Below, one piece after another: positions 19,900 to 34,961 of a DNA stretch of 36,718 bases. Where the stretch lies: contig JAGBXX010000033.1 of assembly GCA_017629035.1 (NCBI GenBank), forward strand, positions 1-36,718, given 5' to 3'. The position numbers were made by a program, and so were the translations under genes. The notes beneath the pieces were generated by a model that saw only the letters and a list, made by a program, of their open reading frames with translations, was not told the origin of the DNA and searched no databases. Source of the stretch: Alistipes sp. GTDB taxonomy: Bacteria; Bacteroidota; Bacteroidia; Bacteroidales; Rikenellaceae. Numbering within the stretch: position 1 is the first letter of the stretch; each line of letters begins with the position of its first letter.

Positions 19900-20027
19900 A
19901 ATTTGTGGTTAGAAGGCTGTAGATGTGGCCTCGATAAAGAAATTGGCTCGGATGGATAGTACTCGGCGTACATTCCATTCGAGCCAATGATTGAGAGGTC
20001 AAGAATGACCCCTTATCACCACAAATT
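19900..20027. repeat. Inverted repeat enclosing fab 3' hairpins
   Basis: The 10 bases at 19900-19909 are the exact reverse complement of 20018-20027, and they enclose both hairpins downstream of fabG. The right arm includes two bases of the fabG stop codon. The whole could fold as one multi-branched 3' structure. Confidence 0.65.
19933..19988 (-). terminator. Terminator of the fab operon
   Basis: A 9-bp stem (19942-19950 with 19980-19988) continues through inner pairs (ATGGA/TCCAT, GTAC/GTAC) and is followed on the minus strand by TTCTTTAT. It lies about 40 bases after the fabG stop. A second hairpin (19997-20001 with 20006-20010) precedes it. Confidence 0.75.
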
Positions 20028-20772
20028 AGCAGTTCATTGCACCACAACAGTGAATAGTCTGACCGCTAACATACGAAGAGAGGTCAGAAGCGAGGAACAA
20101 TGCTACGTTAGCAACATCCTCTGGGGTACCGCCACGACGCATAGGAATCTGCTGTGCCCACTGATCCTTGATCTCCTGTGAGAGCTGGTTGGTCATCTCG
20201 GTGATGATGAAGCCTGGGGCGATGCAGTTAGCACGGATGCCACGAGGACCCATCTCCTTAGCGATAGACTTAGCAAGACCGATCATACCTGCCTTAGATG
20301 CAGAGTAGTTGCACTGGCCAGCGTTGCCTGAAACGCCTACTACAGATGACATGTTGATGATAGAACCACCACGCTGCTTAGCCATGATAGGGGTAACGGC
20401 GTGGATGAAGTTGAAGGCTGACTTGAGGTTCACGTTGATGACAGCATCCCACTGAGCCTCAGACATACGCATCATAAGGCCATCCTTAGTGATACCTGCA
20501 TTGTTAACGAGCACATCGATGCGACCGAAGTCCTCGACAACCTGCTTAACAACCTCGTGAGTCTCGTCGAAGTTAGCTGCGTTCGAAGCATAAGCCTTAG
20601 CCTTAACGCCCATAGCCTCAAGCTCCTTAACAGTCTCCTCAACAGCCTCGTTGATAGCCAAATCGGTGAATGCTACGTTAGCACCCTCCTGGGCAAAACG
20701 CACAGCAATAGCCTTGCCAATGCCACGACCTGCACCCGTAACGAGTGCTACCTTACCTTCGAGAAGTTTCAT
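20026..20772 (-). CDS. fabG: 3-oxoacyl-ACP reductase
   Basis: This 248-residue short-chain dehydrogenase reduces 3-oxoacyl-ACP with NADPH in the fatty-acid elongation cycle. It has the cofactor motif TGAGRGIG (12-19), NNAG (90-93), Asn114, the Ser of INMSSVVG (143 or nearby) and the YxxxK pair Tyr156/Lys160. The C-terminus ends in HCCGAMNC, with three cysteines, a less usual tail for FabG. It is the last gene of fabH-fabF-fabG, 33 bases after fabF, and no acpP gene is in this operon. Confidence 0.95.
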   Translation of the reverse strand: MKLLEGKVALVTGAGRGIGKAIAVRFAQEGANVAFTDLAINEAVEETVKELEAMGVKAKAYASNAANFDETHEVVKQVVEDFGRIDVLVNNAGITKDGLMMRMSEAQWDAVINVNLKSAFNFIHAVTPIMAKQRGGSIINMSSVVGVSGNAGQCNYSASKAGMIGLAKSIAKEMGPRGIRANCIAPGFIITEMTNQLSQEIKDQWAQQIPMRRGGTPEDVANVALFLASDLSSYVSGQTIHCCGAMNC

Positions 20773-20805: not shown

Positions 20806-22059
20806 TTACTTGTTCTCCCACTTGCGGAGTGCTACGCAGGCATTGTGACCACCGAAGCCGAGTGAGTTAGAGATAGCCACTGTGAGTGGTGCCTCAACAG
20901 CCTTGAGTGGTGTGTAGTCGAGGTCGCACTCAGGATCTGGGTTTGTAAGACCGATAGTAGGTGTTACGATACCGTGGTGCAATGACAACGCCGAAGCGAT
21001 AAGCTCAACAGCACCTGTGGCGCCGAGCATGTGACCTGTGATAGACTTTGTAGAGGTGATCTTAGCCTTCTTAGCAGCCTCCTCGCCCATAGCAAGCTTG
21101 ATAGCCTTGGTCTCAGCAGCATCGTTGAGAGGGGTACCTGTACCGTGAGCGTTGATGTAGAGGAGATCCTTGTCTGCGTCGAACTGAGCCTCGTCGAGCG
21201 CCTGCTTGATAGCACGTGAAGCAGGGATACCATCAGGACGTGGAGCAGTGAAGTGGTGAGCATCGCAGCTGTTGCCGTAGCCTACAACCTCAGCGTAGAT
21301 CTTAGCACCACGCTTCTCGGCGCTCTCCAAGCTCTCGAAGATCATCATACCTGCACCCTCAGCGATAACAAAACCGTGGCGGTCAGCAGAGAATGGCAAT
21401 GATGCCTGGAGTGGATCCTCAGAGCGTGACAACGCCTTGCTGTTAGCAAAACCACCGATAGCCAATGGGTGTACCGAAGCCTCGGCACCACCAGTGATGA
21501 TAGCATCAGCATAGCCATGCTTGATTGCACGATAAGCCTCGCCTGCAGCGTGAGTACCTGTAGCACAAGCTGTTACAACAGGAAGACATACACCCTGAGC
21601 ATTGTGAGAGATAGCAACATTACCCGAAGCAATGTTTGAGATCATCATAGGCACGAAGAATGGAGAGATACGGCCTACACCCTCCTCCAAGAGCACCTTA
21701 GTCTGGTTAACAAATGTATCCATACCACCGATACCAGAGCCAATATATACGCCAAGACGCTCAGGATCGATATTCTCGCCACTAACCAAGCCAGAATCCT
21801 TCATCGCATCCGATGCAGCAGCCATAGCATATACGCAGAACTTATCGCTGCGACGTGCAAGACCAGCATTGAGCTCATACTCCGACTGGTTGAAGTTCTT
21901 AACCTGGCCAGCAACCTTAACAGGAAGGTTGTACTCGTCCAAGCCCTGAATAAAGTCAATACCGCAATTACCCTCGACAAGGTTCTTCCAAGTCTCACCA
22001 GCATGGTTACCCACTGGGGTGATAGCACCAATACCTGTGATAACTACTCTCTGTTCCAT
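20806..22059 (-). CDS. fabF: 3-oxoacyl-ACP synthase II
   Basis: This 417-residue elongating beta-ketoacyl-ACP synthase catalyses Claisen condensation of acyl-enzyme with malonyl-ACP. The catalytic Cys-His-His triad is complete: Cys165 in VTACATGTH, His305 in NAHGTGTPLND and His343 in SITGHMLGATG. The length fits FabF. It lies 67 bases after fabH. Bacteroidales usually have a separate acpP next to fabF, but here fabG follows directly. Confidence 0.95.
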   Translation of the reverse strand: MEQRVVITGIGAITPVGNHAGETWKNLVEGNCGIDFIQGLDEYNLPVKVAGQVKNFNQSEYELNAGLARRSDKFCVYAMAAASDAMKDSGLVSGENIDPERLGVYIGSGIGGMDTFVNQTKVLLEEGVGRISPFFVPMMISNIASGNVAISHNAQGVCLPVVTACATGTHAAGEAYRAIKHGYADAIITGGAEASVHPLAIGGFANSKALSRSEDPLQASLPFSADRHGFVIAEGAGMMIFESLESAEKRGAKIYAEVVGYGNSCDAHHFTAPRPDGIPASRAIKQALDEAQFDADKDLLYINAHGTGTPLNDAAETKAIKLAMGEEAAKKAKITSTKSITGHMLGATGAVELIASALSLHHGIVTPTIGLTNPDPECDLDYTPLKAVEAPLTVAISNSLGFGGHNACVALRKWENK

Positions 22060-22126: not shown

Positions 22127-23080
22127 TTATTTTGCCCACTCAATAACACAAGCACCAGTGGTGAAGCCAGCACCAAAGGCACTGAACACCAACTTATCGC
22201 CCTTCTGAAGCTTGCCCGAGCGATTGAGCTCATCGAGCAACGCTGGGAGTGCTGCTGACGAGATATTGCCATAGCGCTCCACGTTGTGTGGCACCTTAGA
22301 CTCGTCGACACCAAGGAAGCCTCGGATAGAGTCAATGATGCGGCGGTTAGCCTGGTGCAAGACGTAGTACTTAATATCCTCGGCCTCAAGACCTGTCTGG
22401 TTGAGAAGCTTGCGGATATCACGGCATGAGCTTGTCACAGCATGCTTAAATACCTCACGACCACGCATCACGAGTGGCTCGAAGTTCTCCTCCTTGTCGA
22501 TATAAGGGGTAGGCTCGAGTGCACGCTGGTAGTAGAGCACGTCGGTAAGCGACGACGTAGTAAGACGGATAGCCTTGAGCTCGTCGCCCTCAGTGACAAC
22601 AGCGGCACCAGCACCATCACCAAAGAGCACGCAGGTGCTACGGTTCTGCCAGCTCACCATGCGTGATGGCTCTTCGGCACATACAATAAGAATGTTCTTA
22701 GCCTTCTTGCACTTGATCTTATCCTCGGCAATATCCATCGCAAAGATAAATCCAGCACAAGCAGCGTTGATATCTACTGTTGGACAAGTAGCGCCAATCT
22801 TACCCTGGATGATGCAGCTGAGCGCAGGTGTAACATACTCGTTAACCACGTTCGAGCAGATAATAAAGTCGATGTCGGCAGCTGTAAGACCCGCATCCTC
22901 GAGGGCCTTGTTGGCTGCAATCACAGCCATATCCTCCAACTTCTCCGATGAGATCACACAACGCTCCTTGATACCAGTACGCTCAGTGATCCACTCGTCA
23001 GTTGTCTCAAGGAACTGCTCAAGCATCTCATTTGTCACTGCACACTTAGGGTGCGCAGCTCCTGTTCCGATAATTTTCAT
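22127..23080 (-). CDS. fabH: 3-oxoacyl-ACP synthase III
   Basis: This 317-residue initiating condensing enzyme joins an acyl-CoA primer to malonyl-ACP. The Cys108 (NAACAGF), His242 (LHQANRR) and Asn272 (YGNISSAALP) triad is intact, and the N-terminal TTDEWITERTGIKER signature is typical of FabH. In this group FabH choice of primer sets branched or straight chains, but the primer cannot be read from sequence. It is the first gene of the operon. Its start lies 133 bases downstream of the -7 box, leaving an unusually long leader. Confidence 0.95.
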   Translation of the reverse strand: MKIIGTGAAHPKCAVTNEMLEQFLETTDEWITERTGIKERCVISSEKLEDMAVIAANKALEDAGLTAADIDFIICSNVVNEYVTPALSCIIQGKIGATCPTVDINAACAGFIFAMDIAEDKIKCKKAKNILIVCAEEPSRMVSWQNRSTCVLFGDGAGAAVVTEGDELKAIRLTTSSLTDVLYYQRALEPTPYIDKEENFEPLVMRGREVFKHAVTSSCRDIRKLLNQTGLEAEDIKYYVLHQANRRIIDSIRGFLGVDESKVPHNVERYGNISSAALPALLDELNRSGKLQKGDKLVFSAFGAGFTTGACVIEWAK

Positions 23081-23212
23081 CTGAAAATATAGTTTAGTTC
23101 AATAATAAATACTTAAATAAGCGAGCATTGGGCTAACATTTGGCCTTAGCAACTGCCACTCACGGCTACAACACTGCTCATAGTCCCGCAATTATGTTTG
23201 CCAATTTCGGTG

Positions 23213-23245
23213 CAAAGATACGTTATGCGAGCGTATACGCACGAA
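23213..23245 (-). promoter_or_regulatory. Promoter of the fabH-fabF-fabG operon
   Basis: On the minus strand TATCTTTG (23213-23220) is a perfect -7 box. TTCG (23242-23245), one base off TTTG, lies 21 bases upstream and sits beside the first of the three direct repeats. A leader of about 125 bases precedes fabH; no riboswitch was recognised in it. Confidence 0.65.
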
Positions 23246-23248
23246 GAA

Positions 23249-23300
23249 TGTGGTAAAAACCGGTATTTTGTGGTGAAAACGCAATATGTGTGGTAAAAAT
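23249..23300 (+). promoter_or_regulatory. Three phased 12-bp operator-like repeats
   Basis: The element TGTGGTRAAAAY occurs at 23249-23260, 23269-23280 and 23289-23300, exactly 20 bases apart. A weaker fourth copy (TGTGGTCATAAC, 23330-23341) overlaps the -7 box of the LytTR gene. LytTR domains are known to bind direct repeats spaced about two helical turns apart, so this is the predicted binding site of the neighbouring regulator. It lies between both -33 regions. Confidence 0.8.
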
Positions 23301-23331
23301 TTTGTCGAAAATGAAAAATTTAATATTTTTG
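23301..23331 (+). promoter_or_regulatory. Promoter of the LytTR regulator gene
   Basis: TTTG (23301-23304) and TATTTTTG (23324-23331) are separated by 19 bases and lie 27 bases before the ATG at 23359. The third repeat ends one base before the TTTG. Confidence 0.75.
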
Positions 23332-23358
23332 TGGTCATAACAACACGATTATTACCCT

Positions 23359-24345
23359 ATGATAAGCAGAGAAATACCCAAATATTTAATCTCGCGACGA
23401 TATATCTCCGTGATGATTGCGTTCATCGTAGTCTTCTCGGCTCTCTTCATGCTCATCTACGAGCCATTCTCACTTGCAGTATGGTTTAGCACCAGCAATA
23501 CACTGCAATTCTCAATAACGATACTATTCTACGTGGCAGCTATCGTTATCCTTATCATAAGCCGCTCGCTGATGTATGCACTGCAGGATAGATACATGAT
23601 GACAATAATAAGGTATCTATGGTGGCTCATGGGCGAAAACTTGGCTATCTCGCTACTTTATACCATACTCACGATATCACTATTTTCCGAACCAGGAGTT
23701 ACATTCCCAAGCGTCGGTGTGAGAGCCCTTTTTTGCGTGACACTAATACTCGCTATACCAAACGGCATAATTCTATTCTTCTCAGCATATCGCACAAAGT
23801 GTGAGGAGCTTGAGGCGGTTTCGTATCAGCTGCAACGCTCTCGTGAGGAGTGTCGAAGACTCGAGCTCATGACCGAGCACGAGAAGGAGCGTCGTGTAGA
23901 GGCGGCAAGCCAGGCGGCTGCCAACGAGCGCTCTCCAAGAATGATTAATTTCCACGACAACGGCGGCACATTGCGACTGACAATAAGCGAGGAGTCGCTC
24001 TACTATCTCGAGTCTGAGGATAACTATATCAAGGTGAACTACAAGCACAACGACAAGATAGCAACCTACATGCTACGCTGTCGCACGAAGAGTGTGGAGG
24101 AGAGCTTGCAGGGAACATCACTAAGACGATGTCATAGGTCTTATATTGTGAATATTAACAAGATACGTTTTGTGGGTGAGGAACACCGCATGCACTTCAT
24201 AACTCTCGACGACGACTCTATACGCCGTATTCCGCTCTCAAAGAGCTACTACGAGTCTGTACTATCGTCGCTCAACATGGCACAGCGCAGCGGTGGCCAC
24301 AAAAATATTATCGCCCAGACAGGCGAACTTGAGGACAACATATAA
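23359..24345 (+). CDS. Membrane-anchored LytTR-family regulator
   Basis: This 328-residue protein has four predicted transmembrane helices (about 15-33, 50-67, 86-107 and 120-143), a charged coiled coil (about 145-190) and a LytTR DNA-binding domain (about 196-305). The LytTR domain is recognised from YLESEDNYIKV and RCHRSYIVNINKI. There is no receiver domain, so it is not a classical two-component regulator; it may sense something in the membrane. It is divergent from the fab operon, and the LytTR-type repeats lie between. Autoregulation plus fab control is inference. The comF stop lies just past its own stop on the other strand. Confidence 0.9.
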   Translation: MISREIPKYLISRRYISVMIAFIVVFSALFMLIYEPFSLAVWFSTSNTLQFSITILFYVAAIVILIISRSLMYALQDRYMMTIIRYLWWLMGENLAISLLYTILTISLFSEPGVTFPSVGVRALFCVTLILAIPNGIILFFSAYRTKCEELEAVSYQLQRSREECRRLELMTEHEKERRVEAASQAAANERSPRMINFHDNGGTLRLTISEESLYYLESEDNYIKVNYKHNDKIATYMLRCRTKSVEESLQGTSLRRCHRSYIVNINKIRFVGEEHRMHFITLDDDSIRRIPLSKSYYESVLSSLNMAQRSGGHKNIIAQTGELEDNI

Positions 24346-28524: not shown

Positions 28525-30705
28525 CTAATACCAGCACTTCTGCTCGCTACCCATCACAAAGACGAGCTTGCCACCAGCAATCACCTCGTCGTGAGCAATG
28601 TAGTTGCGCTCCAGAGGCTTGCCATTGAGCTCCACGCTCTGGATATAGCGACACTCCTCAGAGTAGCCCTTACGCTCCACGGTGAAGATACCACCCTGGA
28701 CATCGATCTCTGCCTTGTCAACAAGTGGCACACCGAATACATACTTGCCAGCAGCTGGCTCTACTGGGTAGAAGCCGAGCGAAGTCATGACATACCAAGC
28801 CGACATCTGGCCAACATCCTCGTTACCAGCAAGGCCATCAACCTCGGTTGAGTACATAGTGTCGCAGATCTCGTATATGCGGTCTGCAGCCTTCCATGGC
28901 TGACCAAGCATGGTGTAGAAGTAGACGATATGGTGGCTTGGCTCATTGCCGTGAACATACTGACCGATAAGGCCTGAGATATCGGGAGTTACATCCTCGC
29001 CCTCCATCTTAGTGTCGGCAGTAAAGAGTCCGTCGAGCTTCTCAATAGTCTGCTCCACGCCACCAAAACACTCAACAAGAAGGTCGAGATCCTGAGGCAC
29101 GAGCCAGAGGTACTGCCAAGCGTTACCCTCGCAATACTCGTTATTGATACGTGAGGCGTTGTATGGATTAAAATCCTCGCGCCACTGGCCTGTAGATGAC
29201 TTACCACGTGGATAGCCTACCGACTTATCGAAGTAGTTGAGCCATGAGTGGCTACGGTTGTCAAGGTAGGCAAAAGCCTCCTCCTTGCCGAGCTTCTTAG
29301 CAACCTCGGCAGCTGCAGCGTCGGCAATAGCAAACTCCATGTCGTGAGCGATAGACTCCTGCTGCAAGTCGTTAGGCATATAGCCATACTGCTTGCGGTA
29401 CTTGCCACCACGAATATCGTGCATATACGATACCTCGAGAGCCTTCCAAGCACGCTCGGCGTCGATACCCTCGATACCCTTAGCTACAGCATCGGCTACG
29501 GCGATGATACCTGGCGAGCCAACCATACAGCCATTATCCCAACCCCAGAGGTGCCAGATAGGCAAGAATCCCTGCTCCTCGCAGATGTTAATCATGGTGT
29601 TGATAACATCGTCCATGCGCTCAGGGTGAGTGATGGTCATGAGCGGAAGCTTAGCACGGTAAGTATCCCACAATGAGAATGTTGTATAGGTATCGTGGCC
29701 AGGGTTCTGATGGATCTCCTGGTCAGCACCACGATATGTGCCGTCGACATCCGAGAAGAGCGATGGCGCTACATACATGTGGTACATGCCTGTGTAGAAT
29801 ATCTCCTGCTGCTCCTCGGTAGCACCCCAGATACGAATCTTACAAAGCTCCTTGCGCCACTTATCGGCAGCAAGTGTGCGTGCTGCATCGAAGTCGATAT
29901 TAGCAACCTCGGCGTCGTAGTTTCGCTTAGCACCCTCGATGCTTGTTGACGAGAGAGCCACCTTAACGCCAATCTGCTCGCCTTCTGTAGTCTTGAAATG
30001 AAGACGGAAGTAGAAGTTATCCTCGCCAATAGGCTCGAACTTATCGAAAGGCTTTGAGAACTCGATGACAAAGTATACCTTCTGGTAGTTAGCCCAGCCA
30101 TAGGTGTGGCGATAACCCTCGATGCGGGTGTCGCTAACAGCCTCGGCATGAAGCTCCTCGGGGCGATCCCAGCAACCACCATGCACAAGGTCAAGGATGA
30201 TAGATGCCTCGTCGCTAGCAGGGAAGGTGTAGCGGTGCAAGCCACCACGCTCCGTAGCTGTCATCTCGGCAGTGATGTTGTATCGAGTAAGAGGCACTGA
30301 GTAGTAACCTGGCTCGACAACCTCCTTTGTACGGTCAGCCTCCGACCAGAAGCCTGTAGAGTAGTCGCCAAGACGGCCACGACCATACTCCACCTCGCCT
30401 GTAACAGGCATGAGCGTAACGTCGAACAAGTCGCCACAACCAGTACCTGAGAGGTGAGTGTGCGAGAAGCCGATGACGCTATTCTCCGAATCGTGGTATC
30501 CCGAGCACCAGTCCCACTCCTGGGTGATGCTTGTAGGGCCCACCTGGGTCATGCCGAAAGGTACGTTAGCACCTACAAATACATGGCCATGGCCACCAGA
30601 GCCAATCTTTGGATTTACCTTCGCAAGAGGGTCTGCGAAATCTGTGGCACAGCCAACAAGCGTGGCCACCGCCAAAAGAAGAGTAAGTAGTTTTGCTGTT
30701 CTCAT
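28525..30705 (-). CDS. GH92 alpha-mannosidase lipoprotein
   Basis: This 726-residue lipoprotein (lipobox LVGC, Cys19) of glycoside hydrolase family 92 contains calcium-dependent exo-alpha-mannosidases. Seen are the N-terminal beta-sandwich with GSGGHGHVFVGANVPFGM, the SLWDTYRAKLPL segment, the EGNAWQY block carrying the probable catalytic acid, and GNEDVGQMSAWY (627-638) with the metal- and base-region acids. These match the alpha-1,2-mannosidase type. It probably trims mannose from N-glycans or mannans at the cell surface or in the periplasm. It starts one base after the stop of the second GH92. Confidence 0.92.
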   Translation of the reverse strand: MRTAKLLTLLLAVATLVGCATDFADPLAKVNPKIGSGGHGHVFVGANVPFGMTQVGPTSITQEWDWCSGYHDSENSVIGFSHTHLSGTGCGDLFDVTLMPVTGEVEYGRGRLGDYSTGFWSEADRTKEVVEPGYYSVPLTRYNITAEMTATERGGLHRYTFPASDEASIILDLVHGGCWDRPEELHAEAVSDTRIEGYRHTYGWANYQKVYFVIEFSKPFDKFEPIGEDNFYFRLHFKTTEGEQIGVKVALSSTSIEGAKRNYDAEVANIDFDAARTLAADKWRKELCKIRIWGATEEQQEIFYTGMYHMYVAPSLFSDVDGTYRGADQEIHQNPGHDTYTTFSLWDTYRAKLPLMTITHPERMDDVINTMINICEEQGFLPIWHLWGWDNGCMVGSPGIIAVADAVAKGIEGIDAERAWKALEVSYMHDIRGGKYRKQYGYMPNDLQQESIAHDMEFAIADAAAAEVAKKLGKEEAFAYLDNRSHSWLNYFDKSVGYPRGKSSTGQWREDFNPYNASRINNEYCEGNAWQYLWLVPQDLDLLVECFGGVEQTIEKLDGLFTADTKMEGEDVTPDISGLIGQYVHGNEPSHHIVYFYTMLGQPWKAADRIYEICDTMYSTEVDGLAGNEDVGQMSAWYVMTSLGFYPVEPAAGKYVFGVPLVDKAEIDVQGGIFTVERKGYSEECRYIQSVELNGKPLERNYIAHDEVIAGGKLVFVMGSEQKCWY

Positions 30706-30706
30706 A

Positions 30707-32947
30707 TTAATATAGTTTTAGTTTTAACTCCTTTGCCTTCATAAGCTCGGCGTGCGATATGCGGTAGCCCGCACTCTTGCCACCAAGCGTGATGCTCTTG
30801 ATATAGTCGCCCGTGCCCTCGGTAGAGATCACGATAGTACCCGCCTCGGTGTCCAACTCAACACGCTCGAAACGTGGCGTGGTGATGGTGTAGTATGGCT
30901 CACCAGGGCAATCGGGATAGATACCCATCATAGAGAATACCGCCCATGTAGACATTGTTCCTGTGTCGTCGTTGCCAGGAAGACCATCGGGCCTTGTCGA
31001 GTAGTTCTCATCAAGGAGCCTACGCACATAGTCCTGCGTGAGGTGCTCGTAGCCCTTAACACGGCTAAAGAGGTATGGATAGGCGATATCTGGCTCGTTT
31101 GTAGGATCGTAATACCCCTTCTCGAAGATGTTTTTAAGGGTGGAGATAAATCGGCTCTTGCCCATAACCTCGATAAGCCCCTCAACATCGTGAGGCACAA
31201 AGAAGGTATAGTTCCACGAGCTACCCTCGTGAAAGCCGATTGTATTCGAGAAGTTAGCGCCCGCAGTAGGGTCGAACTCGCCAACAAACTTACCATCCTG
31301 GCCTATTGGGCGCATAGCACCATCCTCCTTAGAGTAGTAGTTGCGCCAGCCCGAGGCACGCCCACGCAGAGTCTTGGCAAACTCCTTGTCGCCACGCAAC
31401 TCGGCAAATGTCGCAAGGGCATTATCTGCCACGTAGTACTCCAGGGCATGCGATACGGAGTTGTCGCCCGACATATCCTGAGCAAAGAGGCCCACGGGGA
31501 TATATCCGAGCTCGATATATGGGTCGATATCTCGACGTATAGGGTTATCCTTGCCTGGGGTTGTTGCCGAACGCTTCATAGCCTCGTAGGCAGCCTCGAC
31601 ATCGAAATCACGAAGACCCTTGAGGTAGCTATCTACGATAACAGGTATTGCAGGGTCACCCTCCATGGTAAATGTCTCACGGCCATAGAGCTCCCAACGA
31701 GGCAGCCAGCCCCACTCCTTGGCCATGCCTACCATAGAGCGAATCATATCGATCTGACGCTCAGGATATACCAATGTAAGCAGCTGATGTACATTGCGAT
31801 ATGTATCCCAGAGCGAGAATACTGTATAGCGGTCATAGTCGACAGCCACACCCGTCTTGCCACTCTCCATTGCGGGGTACTCGCCATTTACGTCGCTCAC
31901 GATATTTGGGTGAAGCAACGAGTGGTATAGGGCAGTATAGAATATTGTCTTGTCGTCATCCGAGCCACCCTTGACACGAATACGGCCAAGCGCCTCACGC
32001 CACTTTGCCTGGGCAGTGTCGAGTACCTGGTCAAAGCTCTTGGCGCCTACCTCTGCATCGAGGTTTTTGCGCGCATTTTCGATCGAGACATAGGAGAGAC
32101 CCACCTTGACCTCTACCTCCGTGCCTGGCTCAAGGTTGCCAAGCGAGAAGATTGCGCCGATATCGTCGCCCATGATCTCACGTGCGTAGTTATTATATAG
32201 TTTATAGTCGCCGCTATCGCCCGACCACTGCGCCTCGATGCCTGTCATCTCGGGCTGCAACTTCCAGTAGTTCACACTCTTGGCTGCGTGCGAAAGGCGC
32301 ACGACAAAATATATGGGGAATACAGCCTGATTAGTGTAGCAGAATGTTCCCAAGAGGCGCATACCCTCAACCTCTGTGTCGCCCACACGACGAAGCATAG
32401 CTCCCGACTCGTTCGAGAGTGCTGTGCCGAGGTCAACTATAATATTAGCCTCTCCGCCATCCTTGAAGGTATAACGCTCGACCGAGGCACGCTCCGTGGC
32501 AGTAGCCTCGGCACGCACGCCAAACTGATTATAGGTCGTGGCGTAATATCCAGGCGAAGCCACCTCGTCGACGTATGTAGAGCCACGCTTGGTGCGGTTA
32601 GCCTCGGGAGTGCCTGTTGTGGCCATAGTGATGATAGCTCCCATCTCGGGGCAGCCCACGCCACTCAAAGCGCCGTGAGCAAAGCCTACGCTATACTTGT
32701 TGCGTATGTCGTAAGGTGTTGACCACCAGCGATTATCCTTGTCAAAGCGATTAAGCTCCGAGCCTGTAACATTAAATGGCACAGCCGCCATCATGCCGTG
32801 TGGCACAACAGCACCTGGGTGCGTAGCCGAGTAGTCGGCAGTACCGATAAATGGGTCAACCCACTTGGTATTATCCCCTCTCTCCTGCGCCGAGAGTGTC
32901 AGGCACGAGAGAAGAAGTGCTATTATCGTAAGTCGTAGTTTCATCAT
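30707..32947 (-). CDS. GH92 glycosidase, second paralogue
   Basis: This 746-residue exported protein has a Sec signal (1-20, cleavage before Gln) and no lipobox. It has the same GH92 plan as its neighbour: FIGTADYSATHPGAVVPHGM near the start, SLWDTYRNVHQLL, FHEGSSWNY with the probable acid and GNDDTGTMSTW (658-668). The block reads TMSTW where the other copy has QMSAW, so linkage preference may differ. It starts 4 bases after GH97 and ends one base before the next GH92, which argues for one transcript. Confidence 0.92.
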   Translation of the reverse strand: MMKLRLTIIALLLSCLTLSAQERGDNTKWVDPFIGTADYSATHPGAVVPHGMMAAVPFNVTGSELNRFDKDNRWWSTPYDIRNKYSVGFAHGALSGVGCPEMGAIITMATTGTPEANRTKRGSTYVDEVASPGYYATTYNQFGVRAEATATERASVERYTFKDGGEANIIVDLGTALSNESGAMLRRVGDTEVEGMRLLGTFCYTNQAVFPIYFVVRLSHAAKSVNYWKLQPEMTGIEAQWSGDSGDYKLYNNYAREIMGDDIGAIFSLGNLEPGTEVEVKVGLSYVSIENARKNLDAEVGAKSFDQVLDTAQAKWREALGRIRVKGGSDDDKTIFYTALYHSLLHPNIVSDVNGEYPAMESGKTGVAVDYDRYTVFSLWDTYRNVHQLLTLVYPERQIDMIRSMVGMAKEWGWLPRWELYGRETFTMEGDPAIPVIVDSYLKGLRDFDVEAAYEAMKRSATTPGKDNPIRRDIDPYIELGYIPVGLFAQDMSGDNSVSHALEYYVADNALATFAELRGDKEFAKTLRGRASGWRNYYSKEDGAMRPIGQDGKFVGEFDPTAGANFSNTIGFHEGSSWNYTFFVPHDVEGLIEVMGKSRFISTLKNIFEKGYYDPTNEPDIAYPYLFSRVKGYEHLTQDYVRRLLDENYSTRPDGLPGNDDTGTMSTWAVFSMMGIYPDCPGEPYYTITTPRFERVELDTEAGTIVISTEGTGDYIKSITLGGKSAGYRISHAELMKAKELKLKLY

Positions 32948-32951
32948 CTGC

Positions 32952-34961
32952 TTAGTGTTTTATCGAACCGTGATAGATGTAGTGTCCTGTAATCTTAACA
33001 AGGAAGCCACCACCTGCGGCCATATCTATATTAATACCTCTCTTTATATACTCTTTTGCCGTAAGTTCGATATGCTGATAGTCGCTGCCATCTGTTGCGG
33101 CATTAGGGCCATCAATATAGATATCAACCCTCTCTATCGCATAGTCAAGGGGATACCCCGCAACACGAACTGTACGAGGGGTATGACCATTAAGTCCTGC
33201 GTGGTAGATAGAGCCATCCTCGGCTACTGCATCTCCGACGATATACTCGCCAATCTCACCATCGTAGAAATTTTTCCTACGCCACACCGTAGGTATCTCC
33301 GCAACGAACTTAGTGTACTCTGGCTCCTTCTCGTAGTTTGTTGGCGAGTCGCAGAGCATCGTAAGCGGTGCATCGTAGAGGATATACATAGCAAGCTGGT
33401 GGCAACGTGTTCCCTGGCTCATAGGGCGTGAGTAGTCGGGGTAGTAGTAACCCTTGGCAGCATTGCGCATAGCACCCTGCGTGTAGTCCATAGGGCCTGC
33501 TGCACCACGGATAAATGGAAGCGTAACATCGTAGGTTATCTGGTCGTGCTCCGCACCGAGCCACTTCATAGTCTCAAGGCCGTGAACACCCTCAAAATTG
33601 ATGGCATTGGGGTAAGTTTTATTAAGACCCGTAGGCTTGTAAACGCCGTGATAATCAACGAGCATGTGGTACTTTGCAGCTATCTCTGCCAAGTCGTAGA
33701 CAAACTCCACCATCTCCTGGTCATCACGGTCGAGGAAGTCGACCTTCCAACCCTTAACGCCCATCTCGGAGTAGTGCTTACATAGGCCCTCAATATCACG
33801 GTTTAGTGCCCAGTAGCCCGCCCAAAGAATAATGCCCACGTTGCGCTCGGCAGCATAGTCAACAAGCTCTTTGATGTCGATCTCGGGCACTACTTGCATA
33901 AGGTCGGCAGCAAGATTTACCGACCAGCCCTCGTCCAAAATAACGTACTCGATGCCGAAGCGTGAGGCGAAGTCTATATAATATTTATATGTATCGTTGT
34001 TGATACCAGGCTTGAAGTCTACGCCCTCCAAACCCCAGTCGTTCCACCACTCCCAGGCCACCTTACCAGGCTTTATCCACGAGGTATCCTCCAAGCGGCA
34101 CTCGTCGGCAAGATACCGTACAAGGTCGTTGTTGGCTAAATCTTTGTTCTCCTCGCCAATTGCTACAATGCGCCAAGGGAACGAGCGTGCGCCGTGGCAC
34201 TCGGCGATATAGTCGTGGCGTGACTTTACCATACCCTGCAACATATTGTGACCACCCTGCTCCACCTCCTTAGGGCGTGGTGCGAACTCGGTATCGAGCG
34301 TTCCGTCGCCATCACGATTTGAGAGGAACATTCCTGGATAATCTTCGAGGTTAGACTCTGATATCCATAGCTTTACATCGCCACGCTCGACAACGATAGG
34401 GGCAAAAATCAGACGTCGCCAGTCGATATCCTTAAGTGATGTATGGGTGTAGGTATTCTCGAAAGATGTTTCAAACTGCGTAGCGTAGTCAGAAGTTGCA
34501 TCGGGGCGGAAATTAACATAAGGTATCCACGCCATATCCTCCTCGCTGAACGAGAACTCCGCCAACTCATCTACGATTTTATACTCGCCGTCAACATTTG
34601 AAATAAAGCGGTAGGCAACGCCATTGGCGTAGGCACGAACCTCAACGCTGTAGTCACCAAAGTTGACCACAGCACCGCTATACCGTGAGTCATAGTTGCC
34701 GTAATCACCACCATCACTTCGCTTGATTCGTGCACTCTTAATACCCTCGCCCCAAAGACCTCTGTCGGTAGTCATAGTAAGGCGTGAGGGGGCGACAACC
34801 TCCTTATCGCCGAGGTGAGCCGACCAACGCAGCGTGCCATCGCTCCAATCAAGAGTAATAGTACTAAGCTCTTTGGAATAGCACACACGCACACTCTTCT
34901 TACCATAGGCAAAACCTACGGTAAGCAACAAAAGAGTGAGTATGGTAAACAGCTTTCTCAT
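32952..34961 (-). CDS. GH97 alpha-glycosidase, probably retaining
   Basis: This 669-residue exported enzyme has a Sec signal of about 20 residues (1-20) and the GH97 layout: beta-super-sandwich, (beta/alpha)8 barrel with WEWWNDWG (303-310) and YVILDEGW (339-346), and a C-terminal domain. KVDFLDRDDQ places Asp408 where retaining members (BtGH97b-type alpha-galactosidases) have their nucleophile, and Glu463 fits the acid/base. The inverting SusB type lacks this Asp. Substrate is therefore more likely alpha-galactoside than starch, by inference. It lies 21 bases after rlmN and 4 before GH92. Confidence 0.9.
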   Translation of the reverse strand: MRKLFTILTLLLLTVGFAYGKKSVRVCYSKELSTITLDWSDGTLRWSAHLGDKEVVAPSRLTMTTDRGLWGEGIKSARIKRSDGGDYGNYDSRYSGAVVNFGDYSVEVRAYANGVAYRFISNVDGEYKIVDELAEFSFSEEDMAWIPYVNFRPDATSDYATQFETSFENTYTHTSLKDIDWRRLIFAPIVVERGDVKLWISESNLEDYPGMFLSNRDGDGTLDTEFAPRPKEVEQGGHNMLQGMVKSRHDYIAECHGARSFPWRIVAIGEENKDLANNDLVRYLADECRLEDTSWIKPGKVAWEWWNDWGLEGVDFKPGINNDTYKYYIDFASRFGIEYVILDEGWSVNLAADLMQVVPEIDIKELVDYAAERNVGIILWAGYWALNRDIEGLCKHYSEMGVKGWKVDFLDRDDQEMVEFVYDLAEIAAKYHMLVDYHGVYKPTGLNKTYPNAINFEGVHGLETMKWLGAEHDQITYDVTLPFIRGAAGPMDYTQGAMRNAAKGYYYPDYSRPMSQGTRCHQLAMYILYDAPLTMLCDSPTNYEKEPEYTKFVAEIPTVWRRKNFYDGEIGEYIVGDAVAEDGSIYHAGLNGHTPRTVRVAGYPLDYAIERVDIYIDGPNAATDGSDYQHIELTAKEYIKRGINIDMAAGGGFLVKITGHYIYHGSIKH

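Follow-up and report, generated by a model that had tools for sequence, protein, structure and literature searches.

What is the function of three nearly identical repeats that occupy the gap between a fatty-acid synthesis operon and a divergent LytTR regulator gene in an Alistipes genome? The window examined (the whole stretch of DNA analysed, 36,718 nucleotides) contains the following features around this gap:

20026..20772, minus strand: fabG, 3-oxoacyl-ACP reductase (TIGR01830, over cut-off)
20806..22059, minus strand: fabF, beta-ketoacyl-ACP synthase II (TIGR03150, over cut-off)
22127..23080, minus strand: fabH, beta-ketoacyl-ACP synthase III (domain and profile matches)
23213..23220, minus strand: putative fabH promoter -7 box, TATCTTTG, of the Bacteroidetes TAnnTTTG type
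23249..23260, plus strand: repeat copy nearest the fabH promoter, TGTGGTAAAAAC; its minus-strand core reads ACCACA toward fabH, with 28 bp to the fabH-side -7 box
23269..23280, plus strand: middle repeat copy, TGTGGTGAAAAC
23289..23300, plus strand: repeat copy nearest the LytTR gene promoter, TGTGGTAAAAAT, with 25 bp to the regulator-side -7 box
23324..23331, plus strand: putative -7 box of the LytTR gene, TATTTTTG
23330..23341, plus strand: weak fourth copy, TGTGGTCATAAC; not conserved, probably outside the operator
23359..24345, plus strand: membrane LytTR regulator, 328 aa (PF04397 match and hydropathy)

The first-pass annotation had described three near-identical copies 20 bp apart, and we find them starting at 23249, 23269 and 23289, an exact 20-bp start-to-start spacing, with the consensus TGTGGTRAAAA. 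This consensus occurs exactly three times in the window, always within the array; when one mismatch is allowed there are five matches against 0.97 expected, a number reached by none of 100 shuffles. In the window's own genome (G000, 1.8 Mb, 84.7% complete), the paired pattern TGTGGYNAAA-N10-TGTGGYNAAA was found only at the window array when up to two mismatches were allowed; allowing three gave ten matches, two of which are the array, and the reversed pattern gave five. Read along the fabH strand, the core is ACCACA and resembles the published LytTR sites ACCACTTAN. Chance origin was rejected by shuffles of the window and of the 46 fabH-LytTR regions described below, and the repeats look like a conserved operator. 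An RNA element was also considered and rejected, Rfam giving no matches in 22950-23450.

A weaker fourth copy had been proposed to overlap the regulator's -7 box. The plus-strand copy does exist, 41 bp from the third copy, but it is not conserved: exact TGTGG occupies this place in only four of the 25 rows with LytTR identity of at least 55% (L001, L008, L009 and L020). It thus probably arises from the end of the -7 box together with chance, and we rejected it as part of the operator.

The regulator has its LytTR domain (PF04397) at residues 212-302 (E=8.8e-13, over cut-off), and Pfam at E<=0.1 finds no other domain in it. Hydrophobic segments fall at residues 15-33, 49-67, 90-108 and 123-141, the third being weak at 1.49; judged by hydropathy alone, four such segments are present in all 13 regulator rows. 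The nearest solved chain is 3d6w (E=2.4e-6). The gene that follows the regulator is comF-like and lies on the opposite strand. As for the fab genes, we searched 29 chosen genomes, which are MAGs, for FabH at E<=1e-15. FabH of the window type was the only FabH match in 6/6 genomes that have it, ten others carry a single different FabH (30-35% identical), and 13 gave no match at this threshold, so that the search may miss other forms of FabH. Because the window-type FabH stands alone in all six, the fab operon is probably the main chain-initiation route, within the limits of MAGs and of the search, and a switch placed here may operate at the point of entry into the cell's fatty-acid synthesis.

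In each of the five nearest-relative loci, the gap between fabH and the LytTR gene contains three repeats spaced 20 bp apart; one copy in L005 reads GGTGG. Further loci came from a search of 200 family genomes, which are a sample. Arrays were scored with the consensus TTTNRCCMC on the fabH strand, as three copies at one period, against dinucleotide shuffles, after dropping regions identical over the last 150 bases. The annotation's expectation that the repeats persist where the divergent gene pair is kept was borne out, with an array above shuffles (p<=0.05) in all 46 distinct fabH-LytTR regions, 44 of them at <=1/200 shuffles. The mean array score peaks at period 20 (21.2, versus 17.0 at 19 and 17.8 at 21), and the opposite strand scores near shuffles. 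Regulator identity ranges from 100% down to 34% across these loci, so the conservation of the array does not reflect recent common descent. Within the copies, the CCAC/GTGG core is as well kept as the A-run. The order fabG-fabF-fabH with a divergent LytTR gene is kept, and comF, the window's next gene, was matched in 2/40 loci. Two loci (L061 and L064) show by eye a FabZ-like dehydratase reading frame between fabF and fabG, where these relatives have a long gap that the window lacks.

Eight loci (L047-L053 and L058) have the LytTR gene divergent from fabF or fabG, with fabH gone, and here the repeats are mostly gone. Beside fabF/fabG without fabH, the window-type regulator, which we term LytTR-A, is accompanied by an array at <=1/200 shuffles in 0/8 loci and at 0.05 in 1/8; by eye, L052 retains three degenerate copies. 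These fabH-less loci indicate that the array is tied to fabH more closely than to the LytTR gene alone. The single, and hence thin, control in which fabH has no adjoining LytTR gene (G080) gave no clear array, its score of 16/24 being at background and near that of the weakest true array (17).

Bacteroidetes promoters have a -33/-7 consensus in which the -7 element is TAnnTTTG. Of 48 fabH loci (the 46 distinct regions plus L250 and L256 from other families), 43 have a NAnnT[TC]TG box 28-29 bp beyond the end of the last array core in the fabH direction; the corresponding gap in the window is 28 bp. On the regulator side, where the window gap is 25 bp, a distance of 25-26 bp separates the array from a -7-like box in 26/26 close regions (LytTR identity >=49%) and in 0/20 distant ones, making the fabH side the more conserved of the two. 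The window's fabH-side box, TATCTTTG, is printed as a Bacteroides promoter box in Table 3 of PMC6193735. The array is oriented toward the divergent gene fabH and away from the regulator's own gene, from which we infer that fabH is the main target. Orientation and fixed spacing together support control of the fab operon by the array; the regulator's own gene may be controlled as well, as the position of the array would allow.

We found similar arrays at other lipid genes. Scanning the 200 genomes for the paired pattern with at most one mismatch gave matches in 32, mostly at the fabH-LytTR locus. Eight of the ten extra sites were read, and these comprised three at fadL, two at plsY (with an acyl-ligase gene next after plsY), one at a ligase gene and two with no evident lipid gene. 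With up to two mismatches, 70 chosen genomes yielded 58 sites outside the fabH-LytTR locus versus 21 for the reversed pattern, so many of the 58 are probably noise. By group, the counts were 51 sites in the 51 LytTR-A genomes versus 15 reversed, and seven versus six in the 19 genomes without LytTR-A. Twenty outside sites picked by eye, whose genes were mostly named by eye and some by Pfam, fell at fadL (six), plsY (one), an acyl-ligase gene (one), an electron-transfer flavoprotein gene (one) and genes with no evident lipid role (11). A paired TGTGGCGAAA-type match that overlaps the start of a membrane-protein gene in L137 and L138 is probably coding sequence rather than a site.

FadL relatives occur in 28 of the 70 chosen genomes; a FadL fragment scored 23.1 bits with Pfam, under the 29.7 cut-off. 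Among 27 distinct fadL upstream regions, all but L156, L160 and L171 carry an array scoring at least 17 (24/27, in LytTR-carrying relatives), oriented as at fabH, and L175 was further dropped with its start missing. For 23 of these 24 arrays the distance to a -7-like box is 28 or 29 bp modulo 20, but other phases are represented too (nine loci-hits at 22 or 42), making the phase evidence weaker than that at fabH.

The control gene plsY, present in 66/70 genomes, has arrays in 11/39 genomes with the fabH-LytTR pair, in 0/8 with LytTR-A lacking fabH and in 0/19 without LytTR-A; the 15/18 cut behind these counts was picked after the scores were known, the arrays scoring 15-18 and the rest 12 or less. 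All 11 plsY arrays have a phase-matched -7-like box and the same orientation as at fabH. They are confined to a clade with distant LytTR-A proteins, and the window's clade has none. The window's own genome has a plsY without an array (12/18) and no FadL was found there, leaving the window array as the only site found in that genome.

Eight genomes encode a further membrane LytTR protein just upstream of fadL; this protein, LytTR-B, shares about 27% identity with the one in the window, and the gap between the two genes contains TTTCGCCCC-type repeats at 20-21 bp. Elsewhere, LytTR-B lies between acyl-ACP thioesterase and acyl-ligase genes in three genomes and before the ligase gene only in a fourth. 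Loci with this second paralog beside fadL or thioesterase/acyl-ligase genes include L141, L142 and L244-L247.

How far does this regulator type extend? We searched 295 Bacteroidales genomes, which like the 200 family genomes are a sample and mostly incomplete MAGs, with a profile of both LytTR types; 64 matched at E<=1e-25, or 56 after setting aside eight weak ones (best E above 1e-60). The family has a common layout of four predicted membrane helices followed by LytTR. Partners in 29 order-wide loci were DUF6051 (19), fabH (two), acyl-ligase (four, one of them downstream) and others (four). Of these loci 24 were scored (leaving L249, L264, L265, L272 and L274), with a consensus widened at one position after the sequences were known, and a significant array was present in 19/19 DUF6051 regions and 3/5 fabH/ligase regions. 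L273 and L276 have a membrane LytTR gene divergent from an acyl-ligase gene without a period-20 array, and the site there may differ. At the DUF6051 loci a -7-like box was at the expected offset in only 4/19.

DUF6051 (PF19519, alpha/beta-hydrolase-like) is over cut-off in 53/295 genomes. LytTR and DUF6051 are both present in 31 genomes (co-occurrence Fisher p = 3e-13) and are adjacent in all 31. PMC11878206 notes that in CFB-group bacteria DUF6051 genes are found together with LytTR domains and long-chain-fatty-acid-CoA ligases; the part of the paper available describes neither an operator nor a link to fab or fadL, and proposes no lipid regulator. DUF6051 genes also occur in 22 regulator-less genomes, 21 of which were fetched; dropping L286 (141 bases, with no upstream sequence) left 20 usable loci. 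None of the 20 has a LytTR neighbour in the stretch read, and 19 have no array. The exception, L290 (76% complete, no membrane LytTR gene found), has a period-20 array about 0.5 kb upstream on the DUF6051 strand; a small reading frame lies between, and the array may nevertheless be that of DUF6051.

Fab-linked regulators of different families cluster together (99/98) in a tree of 32 rows, which has a very long outgroup branch and from which L048 was dropped owing to a stop in the translated stretch. The core letters differ between the partner types: fabH arrays mostly have [AG]CCAC, and [AG]CCCC is the usual core of DUF6051 arrays; L263 and L271 are among the exceptions.

FapR, FabT and FadR are soluble regulators of fatty-acid genes with other domains. 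Their DNA- and acyl-binding domains are absent from the window protein, in which Pfam finds only LytTR. The locus instead has the features of LytTR regulators, namely a PF04397 domain and direct repeats about two helical turns apart at the likely target promoter. LytTR regulatory systems (LRS) such as HdrRM and BrsRM recognize ACCACTTAC-12 bp-ACCACTTAC repeats with a period of 21, located in most cases 10 bp upstream of -35 (Zou et al. 2018, PMC6193735). As described in the available sections of that paper, they share with our locus a LytTR domain, direct repeats just upstream of -35 and the involvement of a membrane protein; the ACCAC core, the spacing and the placement agree with the window array. 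An LRS, however, pairs a soluble regulator with a separate membrane inhibitor, whereas here helices and LytTR are in one protein, the copies number three or four at period 20, and a lipid operon adjoins the gene. Positive autoregulation through repeats upstream of the own promoter is a further LRS trait; here the array lies 25-26 bp from the regulator's -7 box in the close regions, in none of the distant ones, and points toward the divergent gene. We rejected LRS membership since there is no separate co-transcribed membrane inhibitor: there is one protein, and the next gene is the opposite-strand comF-like gene. The LRS-like operons of Bacteroides (Table 3 of PMC6193735) come nearer in having LytTR regulators with multiple membrane segments, in Bacteroidia, and repeats near a TATCTTTG promoter, but they have an NfeD/DUF2154 membrane partner and 11-bp repeats beginning TCCGG or ACCGG, and no lipid genes are named for them in the part of the paper at hand.

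CoxC (MHYT-LytTR; PMC11347149) is, as far as the accessible text of that paper describes it, likewise a one-component membrane LytTR protein, and its three direct repeats are spaced 18-21 bp apart. The window protein and its relatives have the same membrane-embedded N-terminus fused to LytTR (hydropathy, 13 rows). CoxC differs in its MHYT sensor, CO signal, -35-overlapping repeats, repressor action and alphaproteobacterial host. With no MHYT domain in the window protein (Pfam, E<=0.1), we rejected membership in the CoxC type.

We consider it probable, at about 0.8 on the strength of these sequence comparisons, that the divergent LytTR protein binds the array as its operator and sets transcription of fabH-fabF-fabG. 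The predicted binding of the array by this protein is well supported by comparison. The regulator would be a one-component, membrane-anchored protein with four predicted helices, whose C-terminal LytTR domains would line up along a single face of the DNA by occupying the direct repeats, which are spaced two helical turns apart. The last copy lies just upstream of the fabH -33 region, and the bound domains would help RNA polymerase to start fabH-fabF-fabG. The membrane part probably senses a lipid or membrane-state signal and acts through the four helices, and occupancy of the array may influence the regulator's own promoter as well. Counting against this explanation are the eight fabH-less loci, none of which reaches <=1/200, the two ligase-linked loci lacking an array, the low share of DUF6051 loci with a -7-like box at the expected offset (4/19), the score of the G080 control close to that of the weakest true array, and the choice of the order-wide consensus and the plsY cut after the sequences were known. 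The array by itself fits activation or repression, and the fadL/plsY clade carries a second membrane LytTR protein, so that either protein may act there.

As to the direction of control, activation of fabH appears more likely than repression, because the repeats face fabH, because their distance to the -7 box is fixed at 28-29 bp, and because activation is the role described for most LytTR regulators binding upstream of -35. That the protein binds but mainly represses, blocking fabH or both promoters as CoxC does at coxB, is the strongest competitor, though we hold it to be distinctly the less probable. CoxC provides a precedent as a membrane LytTR repressor with three repeats 18-21 bp apart (in the portion of PMC11347149 consulted), and the window array fills the gap between two divergent promoters. 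The CoxC repeats overlap -35, however, whereas here the nearest core is 28-29 bp from -7 and upstream of -33 (43/48 loci).

A possible objection is that the repeats are the site of an unlinked fatty-acid regulator, with the LytTR gene as a passenger or as a target. This would fit the loss of the repeats in loci that keep LytTR-A without fabH (0/8 at <=1/200) and the position of the fadL and plsY arrays away from LytTR-A. We nonetheless find it improbable, for no plsY array exists in the 19 LytTR-A-less genomes, 19/20 usable regulator-less DUF6051 loci have no array, the core letters mostly track the LytTR clade and resemble published LytTR sites, and the second LytTR paralog adjoins fadL with an array of its own. 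The A-run in each copy and the period of about two helical turns would also suit phased A-tracts, or a UP-like element, bending DNA without a dedicated protein; but the A-run is no better kept than the CCAC/GTGG core, orientation and core type track the regulator family, and the LytTR-less controls have no arrays, which makes such an element very unlikely. Short repeats are common in AT-rich intergenic DNA, yet with 46/46 regions above shuffles and a fixed spacing to the -7 box, we give almost no credence to chance or to a functionless repeat expansion.

Beyond operator binding at fabH, we propose, at only slightly better than even odds, that the four-helix membrane LytTR family is a missing lipid-homeostasis system of the Bacteroidales. 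Such proteins would sense fatty acids or membrane state in the bilayer and set expression of fabH-fabF-fabG, fadL, acyl ligases, plsY and perhaps lipid hydrolysis by DUF6051. They would do so through three or four direct repeats at 20 bp, the last about 28 bp from the -7 box, with a core (ACCAC or ACCCC type) that changed with the regulator clade.

LytTR direct repeats, membrane LytTR proteins and one-component membrane regulators are already known. Searches of the open-access literature turned up no transcriptional regulator described as governing fatty-acid synthesis in Bacteroidota; nor did they link any LytTR protein to fatty-acid genes, the DUF6051 remark in the accessible portion of PMC11878206 excepted. 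The first-pass annotation's statement that LytTR control of a fab operon is undescribed in Bacteroidetes therefore agrees with that literature, with this remark as one partial precedent. The same remark aside, we likewise found there neither the link to lipid genes, nor an operator of three to four copies at fixed spacing, nor the order-wide family. A membrane-embedded one-component regulator beside lipid genes makes membrane-state sensing directly testable, and a recurring operator makes the targets of the regulator readable from sequence.

Five Alistipes sp. MAGs, from the gut of buffalo, sheep and yak, are the closest named relatives that we found. At 28525-34961, the window carries three large same-strand reading frames, which we take to resemble glycoside hydrolases.
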